Of a DNA stretch of 64,000 bases, positions 36,170 through 57,298 are shown one piece after another. Numbering within the stretch: position 1 is the first letter of the stretch; the number at the start of each line of letters is the position of its first letter. The stretch lies in assembly GCA_002729525.1 (NCBI GenBank), contig PBYI01000048.1, positions 1 through 64,000 of the forward strand. Reading direction: 5' to 3'. A program made the translations under genes and the position numbers. Source of the stretch: Nocardioides sp. Its GTDB lineage: Bacteria; Actinomycetota; Actinomycetes; Propionibacteriales; Nocardioidaceae. The notes below the pieces were generated by a model that was not told the DNA's origin, searched no databases, and was given only the letters and a program-made list of their open reading frames with translations.

Positions 36170-36198
36170 TTGACACGTCCGGCCCGGACTCCTAATGT
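36170..36198 (+). promoter_or_regulatory. Sigma70-type promoter of the module B thiolase operon
   Basis: TTGACA (36170-36175), a 17-base spacer and TAATGT (36193-36198). A near-consensus promoter; the family B operator begins at the last base of the -10. Confidence 0.65.
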
Positions 36199-36211
36199 GA
36201 CGACGACGTCA
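36198..36211. promoter_or_regulatory. Operator, family B, copy 1
   Basis: TGACGACGACGTCA: TGACG/CGTCA inverted repeat with a 4-base centre, just after the -10, covering the transcription start. Identical to copy 2 at 40247. Confidence 0.65.
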
Positions 36212-36240: not shown

Positions 36241-37440
36241 ATGGCTGAATCGGCCGTCATCGTCGACGCCGTCCGTACCCCCGGCGGTCGTCGCAACGGG
36301 TCGCTCGGCGGATGGCACGCCGCGGACCTCGCCGGCACCGTGCTCGCCGCGATCGCCGAGCGCAACGATCTCGACCCCGCCCTCGTCGACGACGTGGTCA
36401 TGGGCTGCGTCTCCCAGGTCGGCGACCAGGCGGTCAACGTGGGCCGGTCGGCGGTGCTCGCCGCCGGGTGGCCGGAGTCGGTGCCCGCCACGACCATCGA
36501 CCGCCAATGCGGTTCGAGCCAGCAGGCCGCGCACTTCGCCGCCCAGGGCGTCATCGCCGGTGCGTACGACGTCGTGGTCGCCGCGGGCGTCGAGGTCATG
36601 ACCCGGACGCCCATGGGCGCCAGCGGCGCGTCGGGCCACCCGTTCGGCCCGATGGTCGAGCAGCGCTACGCCGACGTCGACTCCTTCGGCCACCGCGGCC
36701 TGGTCAACCAGGGCATCAGCGCCGAGCTCATCGCCGAGCGGTGGGGCCTCTCGCGCGAGGACCTCGACGCCTTCGGCCTGCAGAGCCAGCAGCGTGCGGC
36801 CGCGGCCCGCGACGAGGGTCGCTTCGAGCGCGAGCTGCTGCCGGTCGAGGTGCGCACCTGGGACCCGGAGGCCCGCGAGGCCCAGCACCACGGGCGTCAC
36901 CTGACGGCCGACGAGGGCATCCGCGCCAGCACCGCCGACAAGCTGGCCGACCTCAAGCCGGCCTTCCTCCCCGACGGGCGGGTGACCGCCGGCAACAGTT
37001 CCCAGATCACCGACGGCGCCTCGGCGGTGCTCATCATGTCGGAGCGGCGGGCCGAGCAGCTCGGCCTCACCCCGCGGGCGCGCTTCCACACCTTCGCCGT
37101 GGCCGGGGACGACCCCATCGCGATGCTCACCGCGCCGATCCCCGCGACCCGCAAGGTGCTCGAGCGATCCGGGCTGACCCGCGATGACATCGACGTCGTG
37201 GAGATCAACGAGGCGTTCGCGTCGGTGGTCCTGGCCTGGCAGGCCGAGACCGGCTTCGACCTCGAGAAGGTCAACCGCAACGGCGGTGCCATCGCGCTCG
37301 GCCACCCGCTCGGGTCCTCGGGCACCAAGCTCATGGCGACCCTGCTGTGCGAGCTCGAGCGGTCCGGCGGGCGCTACGGGCTGCAGACGATGTGCGAGGG
37401 CGCGGGCCTGGCCAACGCCACGATCATCGAGCGGATCTGA
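36241..37440 (+). CDS. Acetyl-CoA C-acyltransferase (thiolase)
   Basis: 399 residues. Catalytic Cys90 (RQCGSSQQA), His355 (GHPLGSSG) and Cys385 (MCEGAGLAN) are present. It is a paralogue of the thiolase at 31655, with the same DRQCGSSQQ and LTPRARFHTF segments, but with a longer loop around HHGRHLTADEG. GAGGAGG ends 6 bases before the ATG. It heads an operon with an alpha-methylacyl-CoA racemase and an acyl-CoA synthetase, so it probably performs the last step of beta-oxidation of a methyl-branched acid, releasing acetyl- or propionyl-CoA. Confidence 0.88.
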   Translation: MAESAVIVDAVRTPGGRRNGSLGGWHAADLAGTVLAAIAERNDLDPALVDDVVMGCVSQVGDQAVNVGRSAVLAAGWPESVPATTIDRQCGSSQQAAHFAAQGVIAGAYDVVVAAGVEVMTRTPMGASGASGHPFGPMVEQRYADVDSFGHRGLVNQGISAELIAERWGLSREDLDAFGLQSQQRAAAARDEGRFERELLPVEVRTWDPEAREAQHHGRHLTADEGIRASTADKLADLKPAFLPDGRVTAGNSSQITDGASAVLIMSERRAEQLGLTPRARFHTFAVAGDDPIAMLTAPIPATRKVLERSGLTRDDIDVVEINEAFASVVLAWQAETGFDLEKVNRNGGAIALGHPLGSSGTKLMATLLCELERSGGRYGLQTMCEGAGLANATIIERI

Positions 37441-37444: not shown

Positions 37445-38605
37445 GTGAACGGTGCCGGTGCGCTGGCCGGGCTGCGGGTGGTCGAGCTCGCCGGCCTCGC
37501 GCCGGCGCCGTTCGCCACGATGATGCTCGCCGACCACGGCGCGGAGGTCGTGCGCGTCGACCGGGTCGTCCCGACCGTCGCCGAGCCGGACCTGCTGGGC
37601 CGGGGCCGCACCACGCTCGGCGTCGACCTGAAGGACCCGGCCGTGGTCGCGGCCGTGCTGGCGCTGGTCGACACCGCCGACGTCCTCGTCGAGGGCTTCC
37701 GGCCGGGCGTCGCGGAGCGGCTGGGTCTCGGCCCCGACGTCTGCCTGGCGCGCAACCCTCGTCTGGTCTACGGGCGCATGACCGGGTGGGGCCAGGGCGG
37801 GCCGCTGGCCACGACCGCCGGCCACGACATCACCTACGTCGCGGCGTCGGGCGCCCTCGGGGCGCTGGGACCGGCCGACGCGCCGCCGGTGTCGCCGCTC
37901 AACCTGGTCGGGGACTTCGGGGGAGGCGGGCTGGTGCTGGCCTTCGGCGTCGTGGCCGCGCTCGTCGAGCGGGCCACCAGTGGGCGTGGGCAGGTCGTGG
38001 ACGCCGCGATGGTCGACGGCGCCGCTTTGTTGACCACCCACCTGCACTCGCTGATCGCCGAGGGTGTCTGGTCCGGACCGCGCGGCCGGAACCTGCTCGA
38101 CGGTGGGGCGCCGTTCTACCGCTGCTACGCCACCGCCGACGGCGGTCACGTGGCCGTGGGCGCGATCGAGGCGCCGTTCTACGCCGCCTTCCTGGACGGC
38201 CTCGGCCTCGACGCGACCGACCTGCCCGACCAGCTCGACGAGTCCGGGTGGCCGGAGCTGGAGCGGCGCTTCGCCGAGGTGCTCGCCACCCGCGACCGCG
38301 ACGCCTGGGCGGACGTCTTCGCCGGCACCGACGCCTGCGTGCAGCCCGTGCTGGCACCGCACGAGGTCGCCTCCTCCCCGCACGGCCGGGCACGGGGCAC
38401 GGTCGTCGACGGACCGGGTGGGCCGCAGCCGGCGCCCGCCCCCCGGCTCGGACGCACTCCGGCCGGACCGCCACGCGGACGTGGACCCGCCACTGCGGCA
38501 GCCCTCGCGTCGTGGGGGCTCCCGGACGACGCCGTCTCCACGTTGCTCGGCACCCCGAGCACCCGTCCCGACACCCCGACCAGAGAGGACGTGAGCGTCC
38601 GATGA
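37445..38605 (+). CDS. Alpha-methylacyl-CoA racemase (CaiB/BaiF family)
   Basis: 386 residues. The racemase residues His127 (GHDITYV), Asp157 (NLVGDFGGGG) and Glu242 (GAIEAPF) match the MCR triad. It is a paralogue of 15544, with a longer proline- and glycine-rich C-terminus (about 330-386) that may be a flexible tail. The GTG start lies 4 bases after the thiolase stop and the stop overlaps the next ATG, so it is tightly coupled to thiolase and ligase. It would epimerise a 2-methylacyl-CoA so that the ACADs of module B can act. Confidence 0.85.
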   Translation: MNGAGALAGLRVVELAGLAPAPFATMMLADHGAEVVRVDRVVPTVAEPDLLGRGRTTLGVDLKDPAVVAAVLALVDTADVLVEGFRPGVAERLGLGPDVCLARNPRLVYGRMTGWGQGGPLATTAGHDITYVAASGALGALGPADAPPVSPLNLVGDFGGGGLVLAFGVVAALVERATSGRGQVVDAAMVDGAALLTTHLHSLIAEGVWSGPRGRNLLDGGAPFYRCYATADGGHVAVGAIEAPFYAAFLDGLGLDATDLPDQLDESGWPELERRFAEVLATRDRDAWADVFAGTDACVQPVLAPHEVASSPHGRARGTVVDGPGGPQPAPAPRLGRTPAGPPRGRGPATAAALASWGLPDDAVSTLLGTPSTRPDTPTREDVSVR

Positions 38606-40167
38606 CGTACGCGACCGGCCTGGGCGAGACCATGCAGGTCAGCCTCGGCGAGAGCATCACCATGACCGCGGGGCGCGCCCCCGACCGGGCGAGCTTCCTG
38701 TTCGCCGACGGCAGTCACCACACCTTCGCCCAGACCAACGCCCGGGTGAACCGCCTCGTCTCGGCGCTGCGCGACAACGGCGTCGGGGCGGGCGACCGGC
38801 TCGCGGTGTTCGCCCTCGACTCCCACCGGTACGTCGAGATCGTGCTGGCCGCCTGCAAGCTCGGCGCGGTCTACGTGCCGCTCAACTACCGTCTGATGCG
38901 CGGCGAGGTCGACGTGCTGACCGCACGCGCCCGGCCGACGGCGTTCTTCTACGACCGCCGCTACGCCGACCTGCTCGAGGGGCTCGACGAGCAGCACGGC
39001 ATCAAGCTGATGCTCGCCCTCGACCCGGCGCCGGGGGAGACGTCCTCGCCGTACGAGGAGCTCCTCGCCAGCGGCGAGGAGATCGAGCCCCCCGTGGTCG
39101 CGACGGACCGCGACCTCGTCGGTCTGGCGTTCACCTCCGGCACCACCGGGCTGCCCAAGGGTGTGCTGCAGTCGCAGCGGATGATGAAGGCGATCGTCGC
39201 CGAGCAGATCATCGAGTTCCGGATGCTCCCGGAGGAGGTCCGCTACACCGCCGCCCCGACCTTCCACATCACCGGGGTGTGCCAGCTGCTCGCCGGCGTC
39301 TCCTACGGCTTCACGTCGCTGGTGCTGCCGCAGTTCGACCCACGGGTGACCCTCGACTTCCTGGCTCGCGACCAGCTCACGGGCATCTTCATGGTGCCCA
39401 CCATGATCAGCACGCTGCTGCAGCTGCCGGGCGTGCACGACCACGACTACGAGCGCCTGCGGCTGATGTACTACGGCGCCGCGCCGATGTCGCCGGCCCT
39501 GCTCAAGCGGGCCATGGACACCTTCGACTGCGACTTCCTCAACGCCTTCGGTGCCGGCACCGAGGCCGGTCTCCAGGCGCTCCTCGGCCCGGAGGACCAC
39601 CGTCGCGCCCTCGACGGGCGGCCCGAGCTGCTCGGGTCGATCGGCAAGCCGGCCTTCGGGGTCGCGCTGCGCATCGTCGACGACCAGCTGCGTGACGTGC
39701 CGGTCGGCGAGGTGGGCGAGATCGCCACCCGCAGCGACATGCAGTTCGACGGCTACCTGGAGATGCCCGAGGAGACCGCCGAGGCCACCCGCGGTGGCTG
39801 GTTCCGGGCCGGCGACATGGGGTACGTCGACGAGCAGGGCTACCTCTACCTGCACGGCCGCAAGAAGGACATGATCGTGCGCGGCGGGGAGAACATCTAC
39901 CCCGTCGAGATCGAGTCCGTCCTCTCCGAGCACCCGGACGTGGTGCAGGTCGCCGTGGTCGGGGTCGAGGACGAGCACTGGTCGGAGATCTGCCGGGCCT
40001 GGGTGCAGCTGGCCGAGGGCTCGACGGTGACCGAGGACGACCTCAAGGCGCTCTGCGCCAGCAAGCTGGCGAAGTACAAGGTGCCCGCGGAGTTCCGCTT
40101 CTCCGAGGCCCTCCCGGTCAACGCCAGCGGCAAGATCCTCAAGCGCGAGCTGCGGACCTGGGACTGA
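38602..40167 (+). CDS. Acyl-CoA synthetase (AMP-forming), module B paralogue 1
   Basis: 521 residues, ANL ligase. AFTSGTTGLPKGVLQSQR (phosphate loop, about 176-193), FGAGTEAGLQALLGPED, GDMGYVDEQGYLYLHGRKKD split by the hinge, GGENIYPVEIES and catalytic Lys in NASGKILKREL. It is clearly paralogous to 46355 and 55445; all three share VPTMIS/MIQ and the G-A-x-T-E-G/S-G-L segment. Three ligases of one type under one operator family suggest related substrates or successive intermediates. Overlaps the racemase gene by 4 bases. Confidence 0.88.
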   Translation: MTYATGLGETMQVSLGESITMTAGRAPDRASFLFADGSHHTFAQTNARVNRLVSALRDNGVGAGDRLAVFALDSHRYVEIVLAACKLGAVYVPLNYRLMRGEVDVLTARARPTAFFYDRRYADLLEGLDEQHGIKLMLALDPAPGETSSPYEELLASGEEIEPPVVATDRDLVGLAFTSGTTGLPKGVLQSQRMMKAIVAEQIIEFRMLPEEVRYTAAPTFHITGVCQLLAGVSYGFTSLVLPQFDPRVTLDFLARDQLTGIFMVPTMISTLLQLPGVHDHDYERLRLMYYGAAPMSPALLKRAMDTFDCDFLNAFGAGTEAGLQALLGPEDHRRALDGRPELLGSIGKPAFGVALRIVDDQLRDVPVGEVGEIATRSDMQFDGYLEMPEETAEATRGGWFRAGDMGYVDEQGYLYLHGRKKDMIVRGGENIYPVEIESVLSEHPDVVQVAVVGVEDEHWSEICRAWVQLAEGSTVTEDDLKALCASKLAKYKVPAEFRFSEALPVNASGKILKRELRTWD

Positions 40168-40211: not shown

Positions 40212-40260
40212 TTGACACACCCTCGGCACCATGACAGCCTTCAACCTGACGACGACGTCA
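40212..40260. promoter_or_regulatory. Operator, family B, copy 2, with upstream -35-like element
   Basis: TGACGACGACGTCA at 40247-40260, identical to copy 1. A TTGACA lies upstream (40212-40217) but I see no good -10 at normal spacing. Confidence 0.55.
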
Positions 40261-40347
40261 CATTCACGCCGGGTAGCGTCGGGACGACCCCGGGCGTGCG
40301 CCGGCGTCGGTGGAGGACCGCACACCATCGCCAAGGAGGCCCGCAGG

Positions 40348-41727
40348 ATGCTGACGGGACAGCAGTACAAGGACTCGCTCAAGGACGGCCGCAAGGTCTA
40401 CTTCGAGGGACGGCTGATCGAGGACTTCGCCACCGAGCCGGGGCTCGCGGTCCCCATGGAGCGTGCGGCGGAGGGCTACGACAAGTACTTCTCGGCCGAG
40501 CCGGACGCCCGCAACCCCGTGATCACCGCGCCGCGCAGCGCCGAGGAGCTGCGGGACAAGATCCCCGAGCTGCTCGAGATGGACCTGCTGCTCAACGTCA
40601 CCTACCAGTCGATCATGACGCTGATCGTCGCCGCGTCGCGGATCGAGGCGGCCGCCCCGCAGTTCATCCCGCGGATCCACGCCTACATCGAGCAGGCGCT
40701 GCGCGACGACATCCGGATCACCGAGTGCATCACCGACGCCAAGGGCAACCGGGCCAAGGCGCCGGCGGCCCAGGACGACCCCGACGCCTACGTCCGGGTC
40801 GTCGAGCGACGCGAGGACGGTGTCGTCATCCGCGGCGCCAAGATGCACATCAGCGCCGCGGCGCTGGGCCACGACCTGATGATCATGCCGACCAAGACGA
40901 TGAAGCCGGGCGAGGAGGACTACGCCATCGCCTGCGCGGTGCCGGTCAACGCCCCCGGCGTGCACATCACCAACACGACGTACCACCCCACCGACCGCGA
41001 CGAGCGCGACTTCCCGGTGTCGTCGCGCATCTCGGTGCCCGACAGCATGTGCATCTTCGACGACGTGTTCGTGCCGAACGAGCGGATCTTCCTCGACGGC
41101 CAGGTCGAGCACGCGGCGGTCTTCGCGCACTCGCTCGGGCTGTGGGAGCGACTGGGTGGCACCGCGTTCATGGTCGAGCAGGCCGACGAGCTGGTCGGTC
41201 TGGCCTCGCTCATCGCCGAGGCCAACGGCACCCACAAGATCTCCCACATCCGGGAGAAGATCGACGAGATGATCATCCACGCCACGCTCCTGCGGGCTGG
41301 CCTGGAGGCGGCGCTGATGCACGCCCACAGCACGTCGGAGGGCTACTTCTACCCCGACGACATGTACACCAACGTCACGAAGTACCAGGGCGCGACGCAG
41401 TTCAACACGATGGTGCGCCACCTGCACGACATCGCGGGCGGCGCGGTGCTGACCGCCCCGTCGATGAGCGACTTCGACAACGACACGCTCAAGCCGTTCC
41501 TCGAGAAGTACATGGCCACCGGCTCGGGAGTCGGCGGCGAGTACCGCACCAAGCTGTTCCACGCGATCCGTGACACCACCGCGGACGCCTACGGCGGCTG
41601 GCACCAGGTCACCAACATCCAGTCGGGCGGCGGTCTGTTCGCCCAGCGGCTGGTGACCCGTCGCCACTACGACATCGACCGCGCGCGCCGGCTCGGGCTG
41701 CGCGCCGCCGGGCTGCCAGCCAGCTGA
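40348..41727 (+). CDS. HpaB/4-hydroxybutyryl-CoA dehydratase superfamily flavoprotein without Fe-S ligands
   Basis: 459 residues. From memory of the family, the protein follows 4-hydroxybutyryl-CoA dehydratase (AbfD) over most of its length: MLTGQQYKDSL, ITDAKGNRAKAPAAQDDPD, VVERREDGVVIRGAKMH, IMPTKTM, VFVPNERIFL, HKISHIREKIDEM and DIAGGAVLTAPS. The ligands of the AbfD [4Fe-4S] cluster (Cys99, Cys103, His292, Cys299) fall on non-ligand residues here: the first pair in LLLNVTYQSIM, the second in LWERLGGTAF. It should bind flavin but not that cluster. It could be a flavin-dependent oxygenase, dehydrogenase or isomerase; the substrate is unknown. AAGGAGG lies 8 bases before the ATG; an upstream ATG at 40231 would place the operator inside the gene. 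Confidence 0.75.
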   Translation: MLTGQQYKDSLKDGRKVYFEGRLIEDFATEPGLAVPMERAAEGYDKYFSAEPDARNPVITAPRSAEELRDKIPELLEMDLLLNVTYQSIMTLIVAASRIEAAAPQFIPRIHAYIEQALRDDIRITECITDAKGNRAKAPAAQDDPDAYVRVVERREDGVVIRGAKMHISAAALGHDLMIMPTKTMKPGEEDYAIACAVPVNAPGVHITNTTYHPTDRDERDFPVSSRISVPDSMCIFDDVFVPNERIFLDGQVEHAAVFAHSLGLWERLGGTAFMVEQADELVGLASLIAEANGTHKISHIREKIDEMIIHATLLRAGLEAALMHAHSTSEGYFYPDDMYTNVTKYQGATQFNTMVRHLHDIAGGAVLTAPSMSDFDNDTLKPFLEKYMATGSGVGGEYRTKLFHAIRDTTADAYGGWHQVTNIQSGGGLFAQRLVTRRHYDIDRARRLGLRAAGLPAS

Positions 41728-41840: not shown

Positions 41841-41882
41841 ATGACCACCGTGCACCGCAGCACCTCGAGGAGACGGACGTGA
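41841..41882 (+). CDS. Possible 13-codon leader ORF before the Liv permease gene
   Basis: ATG at 41841 with GGGAG 8 bases upstream, reading MTTVHRSTSRRRT and stopping at a TGA that overlaps the permease GTG start (41879) in a GTGA. It could couple translation of the permease to ribosomes arriving upstream. No conservation can be judged here. Confidence 0.25.
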   Translation: MTTVHRSTSRRRT

Positions 41883-43903
41883 CCACCTACCTGGAGTTCG
41901 CCGTGCTGGGCCTCGGCCTGGCATCGGTGTACGTCGGCCTGTCCACCGGGTTGCTGCTGGTCTACCGCTCGACCGGCATCATCAACTTCGCGCAGGGCGC
42001 CATGGGCATGTGGGGCGTCTACGTCTTCACCACGCTGCACGACGACGGGGTGCTGGTGCTGCCGATCGGGTCGTTGACCCTGGGCGACGAGATGGCCATG
42101 GCGCCGGCGATCCTGATCGGCCTGGTCAACGCGGTCGTCCTCGGCGTGCTGGCGCACTACCTGGTCTTTCGGCCGGTGCGGCACGCCCCGGACCTCGCCC
42201 AGGTCGTCGTCTCGATCGGCCTGATGGTGCTGCTCCAGGCCCTCGCGGTCATCCGCTTCGGGCCCAACAACATCCCGGTCGAGTCGATCTTCCCGCGCGA
42301 GGAGCTCACGGTGCTCGGGGCCGACGTCGCGGTGCGCGAGCTGTCGATGTGCCTGGTGATGCTCGTGCTCGCCGCGCTCGTGTGGGCCTACCTCCGCTTC
42401 ACCTACGCCGGCGCGGCCACCCGTGCGGCCTCCGAGAACGAGCGCGGCGCGGTGCTGATGGGGTTCGCGCCCGACCGTCTCGCCCTCGTCGCCATGGTGA
42501 TGGGCGCGGTGGTCAGCACCGTCGGCGTGATGTTCGGGGCGAGCCTCACCGGCCTGAGCCCCGCCAACTACACGCTCATGGTCGTGCCCGCGCTCGCCGC
42601 GCTGCTGGTCGCCCGCCTGGAGTCGGTCGGCATCGCGGTGCTGGCCTCGGTGCTGCTCGGCGTCTTCCAGTCCGAGCTCAGCCTCATCGCCACCAAGCCG
42701 TGGTGGCCGGTCTGGGCCAAGTCCGGCCTCGACCAGGTCGTGCCGTTCGTGGTCATCATGGTGATCCTCTTCGTGCTCGGCGGTCGGATGCCGTCCCGTG
42801 GCTCGTTGCAGTCGGTGCGACTGCCCGACGTCGCGGTGCCGCGCTTCCGCCTGGTGCCGACCCTGGTGCTGCTCGGCGTCACCGCCGCCGCGCTCGTGGT
42901 CGCCAACGACACCTACCGGTTCGGCCTGACCAGCTCGCTGATCATCACGCTGCTGGCGCTGTCGTACGTCGTGATCACCGGCTACCTCGGCCAGATATCG
43001 CTGGCCCAGTCGGCCTTCGCCGGCGCCGCCGGCTTCACCCTCGCCAAGCTCACCGCGCAGTGGGACATGCCGTTCCCGCTCGCGATCGTGCTGTCGGCCG
43101 CGGTGGCGGCGCTGCTCGGCATGGCCGTGGCCCTGCCCGCCTTCCGCATCCGCGGCGTCCAGCTCGCGATCGTCACCATCGCCGCGGCGCTGGCCATCGA
43201 GCGGTTCGTGTTCGGCAACTACAGCCTCACCCCGCCCACGGGCAACCCGATCGCGGCGCCGCAGCTGTTCGGCATCGACTTCGCGATCCGTGAGGGACGC
43301 GACCTGGCCCGGCTGGAGTTCTCGTTCATGGTGCTCGCGGTGGTCACCCTGGTGATCCTCGCGTTCGTCCGGATCGCCCGGGGCGACACCGGCCGGGCGT
43401 TCCTGGCGGTCCGCGCCAACGAGCGCGCGGCGGCGTCCGCGGGCATCGACGTACGCCGGACCAAGCTCATCGGCTTCGGTCTGTCGGCGTTCATCGCCGG
43501 TGTGGCGGGCTGCCTGCTCGGCTACAGCCACGGTCAGCTCTCCGCGGAGAGCTTCTCCGTCGTCGTGGGCCTCCAGGTGCTCGCGATGGCCTACCTCGGC
43601 GGCATCACGTCCTTCGGTGGCGCGATCGTCGCCGGGATGCTCGGCCCGCTGGGGCTCGTCTACACCGCGCTGCACCAGTGGTTCGACATGGGCGACTACT
43701 ACGCGCTGATCACCGGCATCGGCCTGATCGTGACCGCGATCCTCAACCCGTCCGGCATCGCCGGCCAGACCCGGATGCAGATCGCCTGGGTGCGCGAGCA
43801 CCTCGGGCACGGCGAGGAACCGCCGACGTCGGGTCCACCCGACACCGGCGAGCCCGCGCCCTCGTCCGGACGCACAGGACAGGAGGTGGCCGGTCGTGTC
43901 TGA
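41879..43903 (+). CDS. Fused branched-chain-type ABC transporter permease (LivH-LivM)
   Basis: 674 residues holding both permease halves. The LivH part (about 1-290) has STGIINFAQGAMGMWG near the start; the LivM part (about 310-640) has GYLGQISLAQSAFAGAAGF and LAVRANERAAASAGIDVRRT, the usual ATPase-contact loop. About 17 hydrophobic segments. The C-terminal tail of about 35 residues is polar. The other Liv system of the window fuses LivM to LivG, so the two systems are of different descent. GTG start with GAGG 8 bases upstream; the stop overlaps the LivG start by 8 bases. Confidence 0.88.
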   Translation: MTTYLEFAVLGLGLASVYVGLSTGLLLVYRSTGIINFAQGAMGMWGVYVFTTLHDDGVLVLPIGSLTLGDEMAMAPAILIGLVNAVVLGVLAHYLVFRPVRHAPDLAQVVVSIGLMVLLQALAVIRFGPNNIPVESIFPREELTVLGADVAVRELSMCLVMLVLAALVWAYLRFTYAGAATRAASENERGAVLMGFAPDRLALVAMVMGAVVSTVGVMFGASLTGLSPANYTLMVVPALAALLVARLESVGIAVLASVLLGVFQSELSLIATKPWWPVWAKSGLDQVVPFVVIMVILFVLGGRMPSRGSLQSVRLPDVAVPRFRLVPTLVLLGVTAAALVVANDTYRFGLTSSLIITLLALSYVVITGYLGQISLAQSAFAGAAGFTLAKLTAQWDMPFPLAIVLSAAVAALLGMAVALPAFRIRGVQLAIVTIAAALAIERFVFGNYSLTPPTGNPIAAPQLFGIDFAIREGRDLARLEFSFMVLAVVTLVILAFVRIARGDTGRAFLAVRANERAAASAGIDVRRTKLIGFGLSAFIAGVAGCLLGYSHGQLSAESFSVVVGLQVLAMAYLGGITSFGGAIVAGMLGPLGLVYTALHQWFDMGDYYALITGIGLIVTAILNPSGIAGQTRMQIAWVREHLGHGEEPPTSGPPDTGEPAPSSGRTGQEVAGRV

Positions 43904-44672
43904 CGCACCGCGCTCCGAGGGCGGGCTCGTCGCCCGCGACCTCACCGTCCGCTACGGCGGCGTCGTGGCCAACGAGGGCGTCACCATCGAGGTGCGCCCC
44001 GGTCAGGTGGTGGGTCTCATCGGGCCCAACGGCGCCGGCAAGACGACCTTCGTCGACGCCGTCACCGGGTTCACCGCCTGCGAGGGGTCGATCCACCTCG
44101 ACGGCCGCCGCATCGACGACCTCGCCCCGCACCGGCGCAAGGCCGCGGGCCTGACCCGCACCTGGCAGTCCGGCGAGCTCTTCGGCAACCTCACCGTGCG
44201 GGAGAACCTGCTCGTCTCGGCGCGCAGCATCTCCTTCGGGTCGCTGTTCGCCGACGTCTTCAAGCCGCACAAGGCCACCGAGGCCGGCGTCGAGAAGGCT
44301 CTCGAGGTCGTCGGGCTCCGGGGTGTCGCCGACGTCCTGGCCCGTGACCTCACCCTCGGTCAGCAGAAGCTCGTCGGCGTCGCCCGGGCACTGGCCGGCC
44401 GGTGCAGCCTGGTGCTGCTCGACGAGCCGGCCGCGGGCCTCGACAGCAACGAGAGCCTGGAGTTCGGGGAGCGGGTCCGCGAGATCGCCGCGGACGGTCC
44501 CGGGGTCCTGCTCATCGACCACGACATGTCCCTGGTCATGTCGGTCTCCGACGTCGTCTACGTCCTGGAGTTCGGCAAGATCATCTTCTCCGGGACGCCC
44601 GAGGACGCGCGGACCGATCCCGCCGTCGTCGCCGCGTACCTGGGCGTTCCGATGGAGGCCGCCGATGCCTGA
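43896..44672 (+). CDS. livG: Branched-chain-type ABC transporter ATPase, LivG-like
   Basis: 258 residues. Walker A GPNGAGKTTF, signature region LTLGQQKLVGVARAL (a degenerate LSGGQ, usual in LivG), Walker B LVLLDEPAAGLDSNE and the switch HDMSLVM. LTRTWQSGELFGNLTVREN corresponds to the LivG 'RTFQN' segment. GTG start; overlaps both neighbours by 8 bases. Confidence 0.87.
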   Translation: MSDAPRSEGGLVARDLTVRYGGVVANEGVTIEVRPGQVVGLIGPNGAGKTTFVDAVTGFTACEGSIHLDGRRIDDLAPHRRKAAGLTRTWQSGELFGNLTVRENLLVSARSISFGSLFADVFKPHKATEAGVEKALEVVGLRGVADVLARDLTLGQQKLVGVARALAGRCSLVLLDEPAAGLDSNESLEFGERVREIAADGPGVLLIDHDMSLVMSVSDVVYVLEFGKIIFSGTPEDARTDPAVVAAYLGVPMEAADA

Positions 44673-45453
44673 GCACACCCACCGCGCCGCCACGAGCGGT
44701 GCGCCGCTGCTGGAGGTCGAGGGCCTCACCGCGGGGTACGGCGGGGTCCAGGCCGTGCGCGACCTGTCCTTCACCGTCGGTCCCGGCGAGGTCGTCGCGC
44801 TGCTCGGCCCGAACGGCGCTGGCAAGACCACGTCGCTGCTGGCGACCGTCGGCCTGCTGCCGCTGATGAGCGGCACCGTGCGAGCGCTGGGACAGCCGGT
44901 CGACACCCGCAAGCCGCACCTGCTGGCCCGCCGCGGGGTGATGATGGTGCCCGACGACCGCGGCATCTTCTACGGCCTCAGCGTCGCCGACCACTTCCGA
45001 CTGGCACGACGTCGGGCCGATGCGTCCCGGCGTGCGCTGGTGCTCGAGCGGTTCCCCGCACTGGAGCGGCTGATGTCGCGCAAGGTGGGGCTGCTCTCGG
45101 GCGGCGAGCAGCAGATGCTCACCATCGCCAAGGCGCTGCTGGCCGAGCCGAAGGTGCTGATGATCGACGAGATGAGCCTCGGCCTGGCACCGAAGATCGT
45201 GCAGGAGATGCTCCCGTCGATCCGCGACCTCGCCAAGCAGGAGGGCATCGGTCTGGTGCTGGTCGAGCAGCACATCGAGCTCGCCCTGTCGGTCGCCGAC
45301 CGCGGTCTGATCCTCAACCACGGCCGGGTGGTGCTCGACGGTCCGGCCTCGGAGCTGCTCCAGCGGCGCGACCAGGTGGAGGCCGCCTACTTCGGCGCCG
45401 ACGACCTCGGTGACGTCGACGAGGAGGTCCTGCCCACCGCGAGCACGTCGTGA
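44665..45453 (+). CDS. livF: Branched-chain-type ABC transporter ATPase, LivF-like
   Basis: 262 residues. Walker A GPNGAGKTTS, signature LLSGGEQQMLTIAKALL, Walker B VLMIDEMSLGLAPK, and MMVPDDRGIFYGLSV in place of the LivF 'VPEGR' segment; the change to DDRG is seen in some LivF proteins of aromatic-acid transporters. The stop overlaps the hydrolase start by 4 bases, so transporter, hydrolase and ligase form one unit. Confidence 0.87.
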   Translation: MPEHTHRAATSGAPLLEVEGLTAGYGGVQAVRDLSFTVGPGEVVALLGPNGAGKTTSLLATVGLLPLMSGTVRALGQPVDTRKPHLLARRGVMMVPDDRGIFYGLSVADHFRLARRRADASRRALVLERFPALERLMSRKVGLLSGGEQQMLTIAKALLAEPKVLMIDEMSLGLAPKIVQEMLPSIRDLAKQEGIGLVLVEQHIELALSVADRGLILNHGRVVLDGPASELLQRRDQVEAAYFGADDLGDVDEEVLPTASTS

Positions 45454-46358
45454 CCACCTCCGCGACGCCGTCGCCACCGGCCGCAGTCGACGGCGTCGCG
45501 GGCACGACCCGGGTCGACGGGGTCGACGTCGCGTGGGAGCGCTGGGGGGCCACGGGCGCCCCGTTGCTGGTCCTCGTGCACGGCACGTCGGCGCACACGG
45601 CGTGGTGGCACCACACGCTGCCCTGGCTGGCCGACGTCTTCGACGTCGTGGCCGTCGACCTGAGCGGTCACGGCGAGAGCGGTTGGCGGCCCGAGGGCTA
45701 CTCGCTCGAGCAGTGGTCGGGGGAGGTCCTCCCCGTCGCCGCCGACACCGTCGGGGGTGCGGACGGCGCCGTGCTGGTCGGCCACAGCATCGGGGGGCTG
45801 GTGACCGCCGGCGCCGCCGCCCGCGATCCCGGGGCGGTCCGTGCCCTGGTCCTGGTCGACTGCCTGGTGACCGAGCCCGAGCGGGCCGAGCGGGTCCGCC
45901 CGGTGCTGCGCCAGGACGTCTGCTTCGGCAGCGCGGCCGAGGGCCTGGCGCGCTACCGCCTGATGCCGCCGCAGCCGGTCCCGGACGACCGGACCCTGGT
46001 GTACGTCGCCGAGCGCTCCCTGCGCGAGGACGTCGACGGCTGGCGCTGGAAGGTCGATCCCGCGATCTTCGGTGCGCTCGACACCGACCCGCTCACCCGC
46101 GCGCTGCGCGGCGTCCGCTGCCCCACTGCGGTGGTGCGCGGCGAGCTGAGCGCGCTGGTCGCCGCCGACGCCGGACGTCGGCTGTCCCGCCTGATCGGTG
46201 CGCCGGTTGCGCAGTACGACGTACCGGACGCGCACCACCACGTGATGATCGACCAGGGTCCGGCCTTCGGCCGGCTGCTCCGACGCGCCCTGGACGACCT
46301 CGGCGAGGTGCTCGCACCCGCCACCCGTCCCGTCACCGTCGATGAGGAGTCCCCGTGA
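45450..46358 (+). CDS. Alpha/beta hydrolase
   Basis: 302 residues. Nucleophile Ser113 in LVGHSIGGLV, oxyanion segment HGTSAHTAWWHH, and the terminal histidine in PDAHHHVMIDQG (about residue 263). The acid is probably an Asp after the sixth strand but I cannot fix it. The family includes esterases, lactonases and C-C hydrolases. Between transporter and acyl-CoA synthetase genes it may release the free acid from an ester or lactone before CoA activation (inference). GTG start and 4-base overlaps on both sides. Confidence 0.8.
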   Translation: MTTSATPSPPAAVDGVAGTTRVDGVDVAWERWGATGAPLLVLVHGTSAHTAWWHHTLPWLADVFDVVAVDLSGHGESGWRPEGYSLEQWSGEVLPVAADTVGGADGAVLVGHSIGGLVTAGAAARDPGAVRALVLVDCLVTEPERAERVRPVLRQDVCFGSAAEGLARYRLMPPQPVPDDRTLVYVAERSLREDVDGWRWKVDPAIFGALDTDPLTRALRGVRCPTAVVRGELSALVAADAGRRLSRLIGAPVAQYDVPDAHHHVMIDQGPAFGRLLRRALDDLGEVLAPATRPVTVDEESP

Positions 46359-47893
46359 ACGTGTCCTGGCCGATCGGCCGCATCCTGCCCCAGTCCGCCC
46401 GTCGCTTCCCCGACGTCGACTGCTTCCTGTCCCCGGACGGGTCGCGACGTTCCTTCGCCGAGGTCGACCGCCGGGTGACCCGGATCGTCGACGCGCTCAC
46501 CGCCCGCGGTGTCACCCGCGGGACCCGGGTGGCGCTCCTCGACACCGACTCGTTCGAGTACGCCGAGCTGCTCCTGGCCTGCTTCCAGCTGGGTGCGACG
46601 TACGTCCCGGTGAACTTCAGGCTGGCGCAGTTCGAGGTCGACAACATCCTCGGCCAGGCGCAGCCGACGTGGTTCTTCGCCGGCGAGCGCTACCTCGACT
46701 CCGCCCGGGCCGCGATCTCCACGCTGTCGGGGCCGTGCGAGCTGTGGTCGCTGGACGGTTCGCTCGACCAGGACCTGGCGGTGCTCGTCGAGGAGGGCCG
46801 CGAGGTGCGCCACGACGTGCAGCTCGCCGACGACGACGTCCTGGGCATCATGTTCACCAGCGGCACCACCGGCCTTCCCAAGGGCGTCATGCAGACCCAC
46901 GGGATGCTCAAGAAGATGCTGACCCTCGGGTGGGAGGTCATGCCCCGGCCCGGGCAGGTCCGCTACACGGCGTCGCCGCTCTTCCACATCGCCGGCTGGG
47001 CGATCGTCTTCGAGCAGGTCGCAGCGGGCTGCACGTCCTACCTCCAGCGGCAGTTCGACGCCGAGGTCACCTGCCGCGCCATCAACGAGGGCCTGCTCAA
47101 CGGCTGCTTCCTGGTGCCGACGATGATCCAGGCGGTCCTGGACGTCGATCCCGGGCCGACGGGCCGGGAGCGGCTCGACACGATGCTCTACGGCTCCGCG
47201 CCGATGCCGCCGAGCCTGCTGCGACGGGCTCTGGAGCGCTACCCCGAGTGCGGGTTCTGGAACCTCTTCGGCGCCGGCACCGAGTCGGGACTGACCACCC
47301 TCCTGCGCCCCGAGGACCACCGGCGGGCGCTGGCGGGGGAGGAGCACCTGCTCTCGTCGGTCGGGCAGCCGATCATCGGCGTCGACCTGCGCATCCTCGA
47401 CGACGAGGGGCGCGAGTGCCTGCCGGGCCAGGTCGGCAACATCGCCACGCACACCGACTGTGTGATGTCCGGCTACCTCGACCTGCCCGACCGCACGGCG
47501 GAGGCGCTGCACGACGGGTGGTTCTGGGGTGGCGACCGGGGGTACGTCGACGCCGACGGCTACCTGTTCCTCGGCGGGCGCAGCCGCGACATGATCGTGC
47601 GCGGTGGGGAGAACATCTACGTCTCCGAGATCGAGCTCGTCCTCACCGACGTCCCGGAGGTGGCCGACGCGGCGGTGGTGGGGCGCCCGGACGACCGGTG
47701 GGGCGAGGTCGTCGTCGCGTTCGTGGAGTACCGCGACGCCGCTCCCACGGCCGAGTCGCTGGACTCGATGTGCCGCTCGCGGCTCGCGGGCTACAAGGTG
47801 CCGGTGGAGTACCACGTGCTTCCCGAGCTGCCGCGCAACCCGACGGGCAAGGTGCGCAAGAACGACCTGCTGGGTCTCGTCGGCACCTCCTGA
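46355..47893 (+). CDS. Acyl-CoA synthetase (AMP-forming), module B paralogue 2
   Basis: 512 residues. FTSGTTGLPKGVMQTHGM (about 166-183), GAGTESGLTTLLRPEDHRR, GGDRGYVDADGYLFLGGR, GGENIYVSEIELVL and the catalytic Lys near the end in NPTGKVRKNDLL. Paralogue of 38602 and 55445. Here the end of the acceptor domain reads RNPTGKVRKND rather than NASGKILKRE, so the acid specificity may differ. Last gene of the transporter-hydrolase-ligase operon, followed by two overlapping hairpins. Confidence 0.87.
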   Translation: MNVSWPIGRILPQSARRFPDVDCFLSPDGSRRSFAEVDRRVTRIVDALTARGVTRGTRVALLDTDSFEYAELLLACFQLGATYVPVNFRLAQFEVDNILGQAQPTWFFAGERYLDSARAAISTLSGPCELWSLDGSLDQDLAVLVEEGREVRHDVQLADDDVLGIMFTSGTTGLPKGVMQTHGMLKKMLTLGWEVMPRPGQVRYTASPLFHIAGWAIVFEQVAAGCTSYLQRQFDAEVTCRAINEGLLNGCFLVPTMIQAVLDVDPGPTGRERLDTMLYGSAPMPPSLLRRALERYPECGFWNLFGAGTESGLTTLLRPEDHRRALAGEEHLLSSVGQPIIGVDLRILDDEGRECLPGQVGNIATHTDCVMSGYLDLPDRTAEALHDGWFWGGDRGYVDADGYLFLGGRSRDMIVRGGENIYVSEIELVLTDVPEVADAAVVGRPDDRWGEVVVAFVEYRDAAPTAESLDSMCRSRLAGYKVPVEYHVLPELPRNPTGKVRKNDLLGLVGTS

Positions 47894-48031: not shown

Positions 48032-48059
48032 TTGACATTGACGTCAGGTTTCATATGCT
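48032..48059 (+). promoter_or_regulatory. Promoter and family B operator (copy 3) of binding protein 1
   Basis: TTGACA (48032-48037), 16-base spacer, TATGCT (48054-48059). The operator TGACATTGACGTCA (48033-48046) begins inside the -35 and fills most of the spacer. Confidence 0.65.
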
Positions 48060-48123: not shown

Positions 48124-49359
48124 ATGAGGAACCTGACGGCGGCGGCGGGCGCGCTGACCCTGGCGGTGGCCCTGGCGGCCTGCGGTGACGGGGGCGGCGG
48201 CGACGCGGACGCGAGCGGCGGCCTGGAGGGTGAGGCGGTGGTGATCGGCGTGCAGTCGCCCGACACCGGGGCCTCGGCCTACCCGCAGAGCACGTACGGC
48301 GCGGAGGCTGCGGTCTGGTACGTCAACAACGAGCTGGGCGGGATCAATGGCGCCCCGCTCGAGATGGACCTGTGCTCCGGCGACGGCACGCCTGAGACGG
48401 GCGTCAAGTGTGCGAACGACTTCGTCGCCGCCGACGTCCCGGTCGTGTTCGACGCCTACGACCAGGTCAGCACCGGGGCGATGACGCCGATCCTGAAGTC
48501 GGCGGAGATCCCGATCGTCGGCACGCTCGCCGGCCAGGGTGTCGCGGAGTCCGAGGCCTACCCGACGGCGTTCTACTTCTCCGGCCCGCTGGAGACCAGC
48601 GCGCTGGGCATGGTGAAGATCCTCAGTGAGCTCGGGAAGTCGTCCGCCTCGCTCGCCGTGAACGACGTCCCCTCGTCGCACGGCTACGTCGACGAGCTGG
48701 TCAAGCCGCTGGGCGAGGCGGTCGGGGTCGACGTCGAGGCCGTCTACGCCGACGTCGACAACATCAACTACCAGGTGCTCGCGGCCACCGAGCTCTCCGA
48801 GGAGCCGGACGTCGCGGGCGTGATCTCGCTGCCCGAGGAGTCGTGCACGGGCCTCATCGGTGCGCTGCGTCAGAACGGCTTCGACGGCACGGTGTTCGCC
48901 GGCTCCTGCTCGCAGTTCATCGACGAGCTCGGCGCCGACGCCGCCGGTGCGATCATCCAGCCGCGCCTCTGGGTGCCGCTGGCCTACGACAACGCGCCCG
49001 CCGAGGTCCAGGAGCAGCTCGACGACTTCGCTGCCGCCATGGAGGCGGTCGGCTACGAGGACGAGCAGTCCGCCAGGTCGCTCTACTCCTTCGCCGGGAT
49101 CGTCAACCTGGCGAACGTCATCAACGGCATCGACGGCGAGATCACGAACGCCTCGGTCAGCGAGGCCATGCAGGGCCTGACCGACTTCCAGACCTTCCTC
49201 GGTCCCGAGGTCACCTGCGACGGCGAGCAGTGGCCCGGCCGCCCGGGCGCCTGCAGCCACGAGGGCATCTTCTTCGAGGTCCAGGAGGACGGCACGCTCG
49301 CTCCGGTCGACCCGGACGGCTACCTCGACCTCGAGCCCGAGTCGGCCACGATCGGCTGA
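48124..49359 (+). CDS. Branched-chain-type ABC transporter substrate-binding lipoprotein 1
   Basis: 411 residues. Signal peptide with LAAC lipobox (lipidated Cys20), then a type I periplasmic-binding domain starting VVIGVQSPDTGASAYP. About nine in ten residues of the mature protein equal those of the next gene's product (49554), so the two arose by a recent tandem duplication. It contains four or more cysteines in the mature part (LCSGDG, VKCAND, ESCTGL, GSCSQF, VTCDGE, GACSHE), unusual for an exported actinobacterial protein and suggesting disulfides. It should deliver ligand to the LivHM-LivG-LivF transporter encoded upstream. Own promoter with a family B operator. Confidence 0.87.
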   Translation: MRNLTAAAGALTLAVALAACGDGGGGDADASGGLEGEAVVIGVQSPDTGASAYPQSTYGAEAAVWYVNNELGGINGAPLEMDLCSGDGTPETGVKCANDFVAADVPVVFDAYDQVSTGAMTPILKSAEIPIVGTLAGQGVAESEAYPTAFYFSGPLETSALGMVKILSELGKSSASLAVNDVPSSHGYVDELVKPLGEAVGVDVEAVYADVDNINYQVLAATELSEEPDVAGVISLPEESCTGLIGALRQNGFDGTVFAGSCSQFIDELGADAAGAIIQPRLWVPLAYDNAPAEVQEQLDDFAAAMEAVGYEDEQSARSLYSFAGIVNLANVINGIDGEITNASVSEAMQGLTDFQTFLGPEVTCDGEQWPGRPGACSHEGIFFEVQEDGTLAPVDPDGYLDLEPESATIG

Positions 49360-49380
49360 TCGTCCGCCAACGCGCCCGAC

Positions 49381-49410
49381 GGGGCGGTCCTCCTGCGGGA
49401 GGGCCGCCCC
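49381..49410 (+). terminator. Terminator after binding protein 1
   Basis: GGGGCGGTCCTCC pairs with GGAGGGCCGCCCC (13 pairs including one G:U), loop TGCG. Nearly the same hairpin follows the duplicate gene (50821-50854). Confidence 0.7.
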
Positions 49411-49465
49411 GTCGGTGCTCTCGGCGTCGCCGTCGCGCGCCCGGTCGAACCGGTCCAGAACGTCA

Positions 49466-49493
49466 TTGACACTGACGTCACATTCTCTATGAT
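49466..49493 (+). promoter_or_regulatory. Promoter and family B operator (copy 4) of binding protein 2
   Basis: TTGACA (49466-49471), 16-base spacer, TATGAT (49488-49493). Operator TGACACTGACGTCA (49467-49480) overlaps the -35, exactly as at the duplicate gene upstream. Confidence 0.7.
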
Positions 49494-49512: not shown

Positions 49513-49530
49513 CGTGACGACGGCGTCACG
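49513..49530. promoter_or_regulatory. Operator, family B, copy 5 (extended)
   Basis: TGACGACGGCGTCA (49515-49528) is the core of a longer perfect inverted repeat in which ACGTGACG and CGTCACGT flank ACGG, about 20 bases downstream of the -10. Two operators therefore bracket the start of this transcript. Confidence 0.6.
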
Positions 49531-49553: not shown

Positions 49554-50786
49554 ATGAGGAAACTGACGGCGGTAGCGGGCGTGCTGGCCCTGACCAGCGC
49601 CCTCGCGGCGTGCAGCGGCGGCAGCGAGGCGGAGGACACCACGGGCGGCTTGGACGGGGATGCCGTCGTGATCGGCGTGCAGTCGCTCGACACCGGTGCT
49701 GTCGCCTACCCGCAGAACACCTACGGTGCGGAGGCGGCGATCTGGTACGTCAACAACAAGCTGGGCGGCATCAACGGCGCCCCGCTGGAGATGGACCTGT
49801 GCTCAGGCGACGGCACGCCTGAGACTGGCGTCAAGTGTGCCAACGACTTCGTCGCCTCCGACGTCCCGGTCGTGTTCGACGCCTACGACGGCACCAGCGT
49901 CGGCGCCATGACGCCGATCCTGAAGTCGGCGGAGATCCCGATCGTCGGCACCCTGGCCGGCCAGGGCGTGGCCGAGGCGGAGACGTACCCGACGGCGTTC
50001 TACTTCTCCGGCCCCCTCGAGACCAGCGCGCTGGGCATGGTGAAGATCCTCAGTGAGCTCGGGAAGTCGTCCGCCTCGCTCGCCGTGACTGACGCCCCGT
50101 CGTCCCACGGCTACGTCGACGAGCTGGTCAAGCCGCTCGGCGAGGCGGTCGGCGTCGACGTCGAGGCCGTCTACGCCAAGGTCGACACGATCAACTACCA
50201 GGTGCTCGCCGCCACCGAGCTCTCCGAGGACCCGGACGTCGCGGGCGTGATCGCGCTGCCGGAGGAGTCGTGCACCGGCCTGATCCAGGCGCTGCGGCAG
50301 AACGGCTTCGACGGCACGGTGTTCGCGGGCTCCTGCTCGCAGTTCATCGACGAGCTCGGGGCTGACGCCGCCGGTGCGATCATCCAGCCGCGGCTGTGGG
50401 TGCCGCTCGCCTACGACAACGCCCCGGCCGAGGTGCAGCAGCAGCTCGACGACTTCGCCGAGGCGATGGAGGCGGTCGGCTACGAGGACGAGCAGTCGGC
50501 CCGGTCGCTGTACTCCTTCGCCGGGATCATCAACCTGGCGAACGTCATCAGCGGCATCGACGGCGACATCACCAACACCTCGGTCAGCGAGGCCATGCAG
50601 GGCCTGTCCGACTTCCAGACCTTCCTCGGCCCCAAGGTCACCTGTGACGGCGAGCAGTGGCCCGGCCGCCCGGGTGCCTGCAGCCACGAGGGCATCTTCT
50701 TCGAGGTCCAGGACAACGGGACGCTCGCTCCGGTCGACCCGGACGGCTACATCGACCTCGAGCCCGACCAGGCCACCATCGGCTGA
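49554..50786 (+). CDS. Branched-chain-type ABC transporter substrate-binding lipoprotein 2
   Basis: 410 residues, lipobox LAAC with Cys20. It differs from its neighbour mainly in the signal peptide and low-complexity linker (GGSEAEDTTGG) and at scattered positions such as DAYDGTSVGAM against DAYDQVSTGAM, which could line the ligand site. The cysteines are all conserved. Two binding proteins sharing one permease recall LivJ/LivK, so a widened ligand range is likely. GAGAGG precedes the ATG. Own promoter, two operators and own terminator. Confidence 0.87.
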   Translation: MRKLTAVAGVLALTSALAACSGGSEAEDTTGGLDGDAVVIGVQSLDTGAVAYPQNTYGAEAAIWYVNNKLGGINGAPLEMDLCSGDGTPETGVKCANDFVASDVPVVFDAYDGTSVGAMTPILKSAEIPIVGTLAGQGVAEAETYPTAFYFSGPLETSALGMVKILSELGKSSASLAVTDAPSSHGYVDELVKPLGEAVGVDVEAVYAKVDTINYQVLAATELSEDPDVAGVIALPEESCTGLIQALRQNGFDGTVFAGSCSQFIDELGADAAGAIIQPRLWVPLAYDNAPAEVQQQLDDFAEAMEAVGYEDEQSARSLYSFAGIINLANVISGIDGDITNTSVSEAMQGLSDFQTFLGPKVTCDGEQWPGRPGACSHEGIFFEVQDNGTLAPVDPDGYIDLEPDQATIG

Positions 50787-53864: not shown

Positions 53865-54575
53865 ATGGCGAGAAGCAAGCGCATGGGGGTCTCCGCCAGC
53901 CCGGAGCAGCAGGAACGCCGCGACATCGGCCCGCTGACCGGGCGGGGGCACGCGCGGCGCGCGGCGCTCCTCGACGCGGCGCGCCGGGTCTTCGAGGAGC
54001 GCGGCTTCCTCGACACCCGGGTCGCCGACATCGCGGCCGAGGCCAAGGTCGCCCAGGGCACCTTCTACACCTACTTCGACTCCAAGGACGCGATCTTCCA
54101 GGCCGTCGCCTCGCGGGTGGCCGGCGACATGATCATCGAGCTCGGCGCCAGTCGCCCGCTCTCCACGGCCAGCTACGAGCGCACCCACGCCGCGATGCGT
54201 CGGTACGTCGAGTCCTACCGGAGCCGGGCGAAGATCCTCGCCCTCATCGAGCAGGTCGGCACCTTCACCCCCGAGATGAAGCGCATCCGGCTGCAGATGC
54301 GTGAGGCGCACGTCGACCGGCTCGCCCGCGGCATCGAGCACCAGCAGGAGCTCGGCATCGCCGACCCGGCGCTCGACCCGGTGCTCGCCGCGGAGGTGCT
54401 CGGCTCGATGGTCGACAGCACCTGCCACCTGTGGCTGACGTTGGGGCACGAGTTCGAGGAGAACGACCTCCTCGACACGCTGACGCGGATCTATCTCAAC
54501 GGCATCGGCGCCCGCGACAAGATCACCGACGACGCCGCGGCGACGGCGCGCGACGCGGTGGCAGCCGGGTCCTGA
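53865..54575 (+). CDS. TetR-family transcriptional regulator, candidate regulator of family B operators
   Basis: 236 residues. A basic N-terminal arm (MARSKRMG, ARRAALL) precedes the helix-turn-helix (about 25-75) with FLDTRVADIAAEAKVAQG and TFYTYFDSKDAIFQAVA. The C-terminal domain contains YVESYRSRAKILALIEQV and MVDSTCHLWLTLGHEF, typical of acyl-CoA-responsive TetR proteins of the KstR/FadR kind. GGGAGA lies 5 bases before the ATG. It is central to module B, divergent from the nitronate monooxygenase unit, and carries a variant operator in its own promoter, so it is the best candidate for the protein that binds TGACRnnGACGTCA (inference). Confidence 0.85.
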   Translation: MARSKRMGVSASPEQQERRDIGPLTGRGHARRAALLDAARRVFEERGFLDTRVADIAAEAKVAQGTFYTYFDSKDAIFQAVASRVAGDMIIELGASRPLSTASYERTHAAMRRYVESYRSRAKILALIEQVGTFTPEMKRIRLQMREAHVDRLARGIEHQQELGIADPALDPVLAAEVLGSMVDSTCHLWLTLGHEFEENDLLDTLTRIYLNGIGARDKITDDAAATARDAVAAGS

Positions 54576-57264: not shown

Positions 57265-57298
57265 TGACATTGACATCACTATCGCTCGACCCGATACT
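57265..57298 (+). promoter_or_regulatory. Leaderless promoter and family B operator (copy 9) of the crotonase operon
   Basis: Operator TGACATTGACATCA (57265-57278) contains the -35 TTGACA (57270-57275); after a 17-base spacer comes GATACT (57293-57298), 7 bases before the ATG at 57306. Confidence 0.6.

Follow-up and report, generated by a model that had tools for sequence, protein, structure and literature searches.

A predicted flavoprotein gene among acyl-CoA and importer genes

We analysed a window of 64,000 nucleotides, positions 1 to 64,000 of contig PBYI01000048.1 from Nocardioides sp. The gene at its centre of interest encodes a protein of 459 residues (the window protein) and is surrounded by genes for acyl-CoA metabolism and for an ABC importer. 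The genes and start signals are as follows.

36241-37440, forward strand: acetyl-CoA C-acyltransferase (thiolase), TIGR01930 above cut-off
37445-38605, forward strand: CoA-transferase family III (CaiB/BaiF), by profile match
38602-40167, forward strand: AMP-forming acyl-CoA ligase, best models below cut-off
40212-40217, forward strand: TTGACA, a candidate -35 element, from the sequence
40333-40339, forward strand: AAGGAGG ribosome-binding site, 8 nt before the ATG of the 40348 gene, from the sequence
40348-41727, forward strand: cluster-free HpaB/AbfD-fold flavoprotein, 459 residues, assigned from Pfam, solved relatives and a structure model
41879-43903, forward strand: fused branched-chain-type ABC permease with LivH- and LivM-like halves (cluster 6, profiles)
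43896-45453, forward strand: two ABC ATPases, 43896-44672 assigned by eye and by its cluster, 44665-45453 by Pfam
45450-46358, forward strand: alpha/beta hydrolase, by profile match
46355-47893, forward strand: second acyl-CoA ligase, by model matches
48124-49359, forward strand: LivK-type substrate-binding protein 1, by profile match
49554-50786, forward strand: LivK-type substrate-binding protein 2 (cluster 5)
52736-53674, reverse strand: nitronate-monooxygenase-family (NMO) flavoprotein, by profile match
53865-54575, forward strand: TetR-type regulator (TetR_N, 4.1e-18; cluster 7)
58159-58920, forward strand: SDR, by eye from the translation
58917-60116, forward strand: acyl-CoA dehydrogenase, by eye
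62244-63464, forward strand: acyl-CoA dehydrogenase with a helix-G ER motif (cluster 8)

The reading frame of the 40348-41727 gene stays open upstream to 40231. The start at 40348 is likelier than the upstream starts, because an operator at 40247-40260 falls inside the open stretch between 40231 and 40348.

A scan of genome contigs returned at least 16 related loci, of which at least 12 are close (59-87% identity), three more are AbfD-like (4-hydroxybutyryl-CoA dehydratase) and one is HpaB-like. The close relatives listed come from Actinomadura, Pseudonocardia, Geodermatophilus, Rhodococcoides, Tamaricihabitans and MAGs. In the tree, eleven of the 12 close loci listed (L006-L015 and L017) lie with the window gene, while L016 (59%) lies with a paralog at 66296-67669 of the same contig. 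A chance open reading frame or an artefact at 40348-41727 was ruled out by these related loci.

The original prediction had placed a flavin-family gene beside uptake genes, and this arrangement was borne out by the ABC importer and CoA-catabolism genes around it. The importer permease (cluster 6) and a binding protein are kept in 10 of the 12 close loci listed, and 9 of the 12 have a dehydrogenase of cluster 4 or 8. The cluster-8 members of the Geodermatophilus locus (L010) are PimC-like. The dehydrogenases encoded there have matches, all below cut-off, to subunits of pimeloyl-CoA dehydrogenase and to IpdE2, and hydratases and an SDR lie alongside. An alicyclic or branched acid would be a fitting substrate for such a gene set. 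The substrate is not indicated by the binding protein, which gave weak matches to amino-acid-binding proteins, or by the ligases, which gave generic matches to fatty-acyl and feruloyl-CoA ligases.

The two LivK-type binding proteins (48124-49359 and 49554-50786) are similar to one another and lie in tandem, each under its own operator. Between their genes we found a strong inverted repeat at 49376-49415 with 18-nt arms (94%), probably a terminator.

A shared operator and its probable regulator

Copies of a 14-nt operator precede several genes of the region.

36198-36211, forward strand: TGACGACGACGTCA, upstream of the thiolase gene, by pattern match
40247-40260, forward strand: the same TGACGACGACGTCA, 88-101 nt before the start of the window gene, by pattern match
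48033-48046, forward strand: TGACATTGACGTCA, upstream of binding protein 1, looser pattern
49467-49480, forward strand: TGACACTGACGTCA, upstream of binding protein 2, looser pattern
49515-49528, forward strand: TGACGACGGCGTCA, another copy before the gene of binding protein 2, stricter pattern
53653-53666, reverse strand: TGACAATGACGTCA, before the TetR gene, looser pattern; less sure, owing to its overlap with the opening codons of the listed NMO reading frame
57265-57278, forward strand: weaker site with one mismatch to the looser pattern, in the 5' part of the reading frame holding a hydratase-like protein

Four promoter regions are clear (thiolase, window gene and both binding proteins) and two are less sure (beside the TetR gene and before the hydratase-like frame). 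The "family B operator" described in the original prediction is real by two measures. Among the 12 close loci listed, the related gene is preceded by the exact 14-mer TGACGACGACGTCA in 8 and by its looser form in 9. Moreover, when one mismatch was allowed, the looser pattern TGACNNNGACGTCA was hit 13 times in the window, where 2.33 hits were expected, and none of 100 shuffles had as many. These 13 hits are 10 places, since three count on both strands; five places are exact and some of the remaining ones are intragenic. The stricter pattern alone is not significant in the window (3 hits against 0.88 expected, 8/100 shuffles); across the genome it matches exactly at four places, of which the window holds three, and at 138 places if one mismatch is allowed. 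L013 carries a degenerate copy, and L015 and L016 have none within the 160 nt read upstream. The regulon was not seen to reach the paralog: the stretch around it (L022) yielded a single weak operator-like hit, no more than chance would give.

Besides the window, 8 of the 12 close loci listed and the locus L032 carry the TetR-type gene (cluster 7), and L006 and L007 have an operator site in the equivalent place before their TetR reading frame. The protein at 53865-54575 is probably the regulator that reads this operator. The region holds a conserved, apparently repressor-controlled gene set for the uptake and breakdown of an organic acid.

Family assignment and predicted fold

The window protein carries both Pfam domains of the family above their gathering cut-offs (HpaB_N, 5.3e-61, 207 bits; HpaB, 3.5e-45, 154.1 bits) and, together with a predicted fold matching at Z of 36, belongs to the HpaB/AbfD superfamily. 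It scores far below the NCBIfam equivalog cut-offs for HpaB-1 (176 against 480.2 bits needed) and HpaB-2 (93.2 against 885.2 bits). A single Pfam domain of the acyl-CoA dehydrogenases was detected, below cut-off (Acyl-CoA_dh_M, 19.8 against 33.3 bits). The nearest solved structures by sequence are of the AbfD type (6vjr, 2.3e-49; 1u8v, 4.8e-48), ahead of HpaB (2yyg, 6.9e-41), in keeping with the earlier description of a protein that follows AbfD. Annotation in this family follows the two activities known for it, and Pfam would name the window protein 4-hydroxyphenylacetate 3-hydroxylase.

The structure was predicted from 18 sequences, one of which (L010:8364-9758) begins two residues late. The model has a pLDDT of 80.3 and a pTM of 0.79, with weak stretches at residues 213-227 and 412-432. 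In fold searches, which included Foldseek, AbfD-type structures such as that of N. maritimus (6VJR) matched over the full length at Z of 36.5-36.6, and group D monooxygenases of the HpaB type (HpaB, TftD, HadA) at Z of 32 up to 36.2. The structural comparison with AbfD and HpaB that was suggested with the original prediction therefore relates the protein to both and cannot decide between them, because the scores are tied at about 36. Long-chain and isovaleryl-type acyl-CoA dehydrogenases share the core fold at Z of about 22.

Iron-sulfur ligand positions

We aligned 64 sequences, comprising 20 of the clade that holds the window protein (window clade), 25 AbfD-type proteins, 10 HpaB-type monooxygenases and nine members of a His-only group, which keep the ligand histidine of AbfD and have no ligand cysteines. 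Three sites of the window gene are central to this comparison.

40585-40644, forward strand: residues 80-99, the helix that holds C99-x3-C103 in AbfD and RxxD in HpaB, here without Cys or His (alignments)
41041-41043, forward strand: Asp232 codon, the equivalent of HadA Asp254 and AbfD Glu257 (alignments)
41146-41148, forward strand: Glu267 codon, in the column of the AbfD ligand His292 and the HadA base His290 (alignments, including remote profile alignment)

AbfD residue numbers were counted from the pairwise match to the solved AbfD-type structures, and the functional roles given to these residues are those we take them to have. All four [4Fe-4S] ligands (three Cys and one His; C99, C103, H292 and C299) are present in 25/25 AbfD-type rows. 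In contrast, none of the 20 window-clade rows has Cys at a ligand column, and the H292 column is Glu in all 20. These counts were unchanged across four MAFFT settings. The absence of the ligands, which had been read from the segments LLLNVTYQSIM (residues 80-90) and LWERLGGTAF (residues 265-274), was thus upheld; both segments are present. The residues then named as replacements, Asn/Gln and Trp/Thr, held in part. No register puts a Cys at the ligand positions, but the histidine column falls on Glu267 and not on Trp266. We placed it on Glu267 because the Arg that follows is conserved (YHR in AbfD, WER here) and common to the window clade, AbfD and His-only rows; phmmer by itself would choose Trp266. 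The first segment is less securely registered. C99 and C103 correspond to a gap and Asn83 in the 64-row alignment, to Thr85 and Ile89 in a second alignment, or to Thr85 and a gap by hhalign. Three alignments have a gap of about 6-8 residues in or beside residues 80-99, and a fourth sets the shortening earlier. There is no Cys or His within residues 73-99 of the window protein.

A few clade members vary around these positions. Histidine occupies the C103 column in 4/20 rows and the C299 column in 2/20, and one row (L008) has a Cys near the ligand columns. All 20 rows also have His261, which shares a helix with Glu267. Of the other AbfD residues, Glu455 is Thr in the window protein, and the equivalents of Tyr296 and Lys300 are altered along with His292. 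AbfD-type radical dehydration is unlikely in the window protein, because it has no Fe-S ligands; here our reading agrees with the original one.

Phylogeny and distribution

A tree of the 64 rows (IQ-TREE, LG+C20, unrooted) recovered AbfD with support of 100/100, the window clade with 100/99, the HpaB type with 100/99 and the His-only group with a weak 56/86. The program gave a long-branch warning, concerning the branch on which L072 joins the rest. The window clade is a well-supported, distinct actinobacterial branch of the HpaB/AbfD family, as judged from 20 sampled sequences. The His-only and AbfD rows together form one side of a 100/98 branch that excludes the window clade, and a grouping of the window clade with AbfD, picked after the tree was seen, was rejected (p-AU 0.018). 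These two results favour gain of the cluster on the AbfD branch. One gain is simpler than two or three losses from an ancestral cluster; the single-gain count holds for any root outside AbfD, and the number of losses depends on the root. As part of our best explanation, the tree favours a window-protein lineage that never acquired the cluster, against the earlier view that it was lost.

An AbfD that has lost its cluster and keeps a residual AbfD function, for example as a vinylacetyl-CoA isomerase, is highly improbable in our assessment. The closest solved structures to the window protein by sequence are of the AbfD type, and it has the TDxKG.R and RGxKxH motifs in common with AbfD. However, the tree and AU test argue against this reading, the ligand-free state extends to 20/20 clade rows, and the changes take in the equivalents of Glu455, His292, Tyr296 and Lys300 as well as the cysteines.

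We then place the clade by its distribution. A class-wide search of 296 genomes gave six with a match at 1e-60 or better, including the source genome; in four the match belonged to the window clade, in two to the His-only group. No match at this level was found among the 14 other genomes listed from the same genus. In a phylum-wide search, 53 of 396 genomes matched at 1e-25, and the 27 new loci taken from it comprised 20 AbfD-type, five His-only and two window-clade sequences. A plasmid search matched 259 records, every one below 60% identity; these relatives bear the names "4-hydroxyphenylacetate 3-hydroxylase" or "4-hydroxybutyryl-CoA dehydratase", and none listed falls in the window clade. 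We found no description of the window clade in the literature covered, which represents subscription papers and preprints poorly.

The source genome encodes four proteins above the HpaB_N cut-off: the window protein, the same-contig paralog and two ordinary HpaB types. The paralog (66296-67669; L022:2296-3699) is 57% identical to the window protein, belongs to the same clade and lies about 25 kb downstream. Geodermatophilus carries both paralogs adjacent to one another (L010:7824-9761 and 10001-11380).

The His-only group (L032:8995-10401, L033:6989-8386, L029, L030 and L050-L054) resembles the window clade in having no Cys ligands, and L032 likewise has CoA-enzyme neighbours. It differs in keeping His292 and a Lys/Arg at position 300, and lies on the sister side of AbfD. 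Its members have Glu/Asp at C103 and Tyr at C299. The His-only gene on a plasmid of Rhodococcus opacus PD630 is flanked on one side by genes for alcohol and aldehyde dehydrogenases and on the other by CaiB, AMP-binding and carboxyl-transferase genes. One record names a His-only protein 4-hydroxybutyryl-CoA dehydratase.

Monooxygenase signature and flavin reductases

According to PMC8342789, FADH2-using class D enzymes all have equivalents of HadA Arg101, Thr193, Arg233, Asp254 and Arg439, and HadA His290 acts as the base for hydroxylation. We carried the flavin-site columns into the alignment through TftD, and the HpaB-type rows have these five residues in 10, 10, 10, 10 and 8 of 10 cases, respectively. 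The window clade keeps the Thr193-type Ser/Thr and the Asp254-type Asp/Glu, each in 20/20 rows. In contrast, the three arginines are found in 0/20 (Arg101), 0/20 (Arg233) and 1/20 (Arg439) of its rows, and are also absent from the AbfD and His-only rows. H167, K345, D361 and T369 are common to the window protein and the AbfD-side rows and mostly not to the HpaB-type rows, and several other positions are common to the window clade and HpaB, not AbfD.

A flavin-reductase profile matched none of 19 window-clade stretches, against a match near 7 of 10 HpaB-type loci, of which 3 are independent of the four proteins beside HpaB-type genes used to build the profile. The flanks searched were 1-3 kb for the HpaB-type plasmid loci, 10 kb for L021, and 12 and 16 kb for the two ordinary HpaB-type genes of the source genome (on contigs C62 and C41). 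For the clade loci they were mostly up to 10 kb per side, about 1.5 kb for L048 and L049, and limited by short contigs for L011 and L016. The missing reductase partner noted in the original prediction holds for this contig but not for the genome, which encodes six flavin reductases elsewhere. One of them adjoins the ordinary HpaB-type gene on C62, and the C41 counterpart, one of the 3 independent matches, lies about 6.3 kb from its gene. With six reductases encoded off its contig, an unlinked one could serve the window protein.

The protein might then be a two-component FADH2 monooxygenase acting on a CoA- or carrier-bound substrate or on a free acid. The Pfam and NCBIfam HpaB matches, a fold that fits the HpaB type as well as AbfD, the six reductases and the retained Ser/Thr and Asp/Glu are consistent with this, and the HpaB relative SgcC acts on a carrier-tethered substrate, according to PMC6165268. 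We nevertheless regard a monooxygenase as unlikely. The arginines that PMC8342789 calls universal are missing in 20, 20 and 19 of 20 rows, which weakens the HpaB-type option raised in the original prediction. In addition, the HpaB-1 score is far under its cut-off, the reductase profile found nothing in the 19 clade stretches and the clade is separate from the HpaB-type rows in the tree.

Glu267 and the acyl-CoA dehydrogenase comparison

Glu267 is invariant in the window clade (20/20 rows). We pooled the acyl-CoA dehydrogenases of these loci into one profile, and in its alignments to the window clade, the His-only group and AbfD the Glu267 column falls on the helix-G "er" (92-97% probability). 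This "er" is a weak consensus, which the template row L012 lacks, and the window-clade alignment has a one-residue gap right before it. The window clade matches the pooled profile at 94.8-96.6%, against 30% and 0.6% for its two subfamilies singly; the second of these nevertheless aligns E with E. The HpaB-type profile, too, reaches 94.3% against the pooled dehydrogenases.

This remote alignment would pair Glu267 with the Glu-Arg that long-chain and isovaleryl-type dehydrogenases carry on the first C-terminal-domain helix, in proteins whose sequence likeness to the window protein is otherwise barely detectable. The human LCAD entries 8w0t and 8w0z differ E/Q at the helix-G Glu position; we take 8w0z to be a base mutant and the helix-G Glu to be the catalytic base of LCAD. 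E254 is the base of isovaleryl-CoA dehydrogenase. We infer that Glu267 is a catalytic base, and it provides our main lead to the mechanism.

The same alignment could point to a net acyl-CoA dehydrogenase, in which Glu267 would take the alpha-proton as in LCAD, a beta-hydride would pass to FAD and the electrons would leave via ETF. The related fold at Z of about 22 and the CoA-catabolism surroundings would suit this reading, which we consider doubtful. The region already encodes several acyl-CoA dehydrogenases, and we know of no HpaB/AbfD-fold enzyme that acts as a net acyl-CoA dehydrogenase.

We give very little credence to a non-catalytic or partner role, for instance as one half of a heteromer with the same-contig paralog. 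The source genome and Geodermatophilus do have both paralogs in one region, but five other genomes with a clade member that were searched whole (G086, G139, G241, G379 and G407) each have one such match, and the flavin-site S/T169 and E267 are conserved.

As far as can be judged computationally, the window protein has the defining features neither of AbfD nor of group D monooxygenases nor of acyl-CoA dehydrogenases proper, and fits neither known activity of its family, although its action may resemble AbfD and the acyl-CoA dehydrogenases in part. It stays within the known HpaB/AbfD superfamily, as a ligand-free clade. Its reaction probably differs from both known activities.

Proposed reaction

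We tentatively propose, at a little short of even confidence, that the window protein is a cluster-free FAD enzyme that uses base catalysis on a CoA-thioester substrate in a pathway resembling beta-oxidation. The proposal draws on computed features: family and predicted fold, missing ligands and monooxygenase arginines, the invariant Glu, and the conserved gene set and operator. The imported acid would be put onto CoA by the ligases of the region. Glu267, which we place beside a predicted bound FAD, would deprotonate the acyl-CoA. A double bond would then be moved or created with the help of FAD and with no radical or oxygen chemistry. The likeliest net reaction would be redox-neutral, either a double-bond shift or the loss of a gamma-substituent, and is one choice among several that fit. 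We prefer a redox-neutral outcome because the region already encodes several acyl-CoA dehydrogenases.

BbuA (gamma-butyrobetainyl-CoA TMA-lyase) offers a model for such chemistry. PMC8364193 describes an FAD-containing member of the ACAD superfamily that uses its flavin for a C4 elimination on an acyl-CoA, and no cluster is reported. BbuA differs in sequence; the identity of about 10% or less given there concerns 4HBD and not the window protein.

More broadly, the clade may give the HpaB/AbfD fold a third functional class, whose members would act on CoA thioesters as lyases, isomerases or desaturases and need neither a cluster nor oxygen. They would use a helix-G Glu in the slot taken by the cluster His in AbfD and by the base His in HadA, and would serve an actinobacterial acid-degradation regulon. 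We see the case for this reading as a whole as evenly balanced. If it is true, the fold has a third chemistry. The series from no ligand through His-only to four ligands would then be a possible route from a plain flavoenzyme to a radical iron-sulfur enzyme, and the locus would point to a complete, regulated pathway for an organic acid.

Finally, the stretch around the paralog contains, in a row at L022:4679-8348, an APH-type kinase gene and an acyl-CoA dehydrogenase gene (both by Pfam) and a second APH-like gene (by eye). This row presumably resembles 4-hydroxyacyl-CoA handling of the LvaA/LvaC or ACAD10/11 type.
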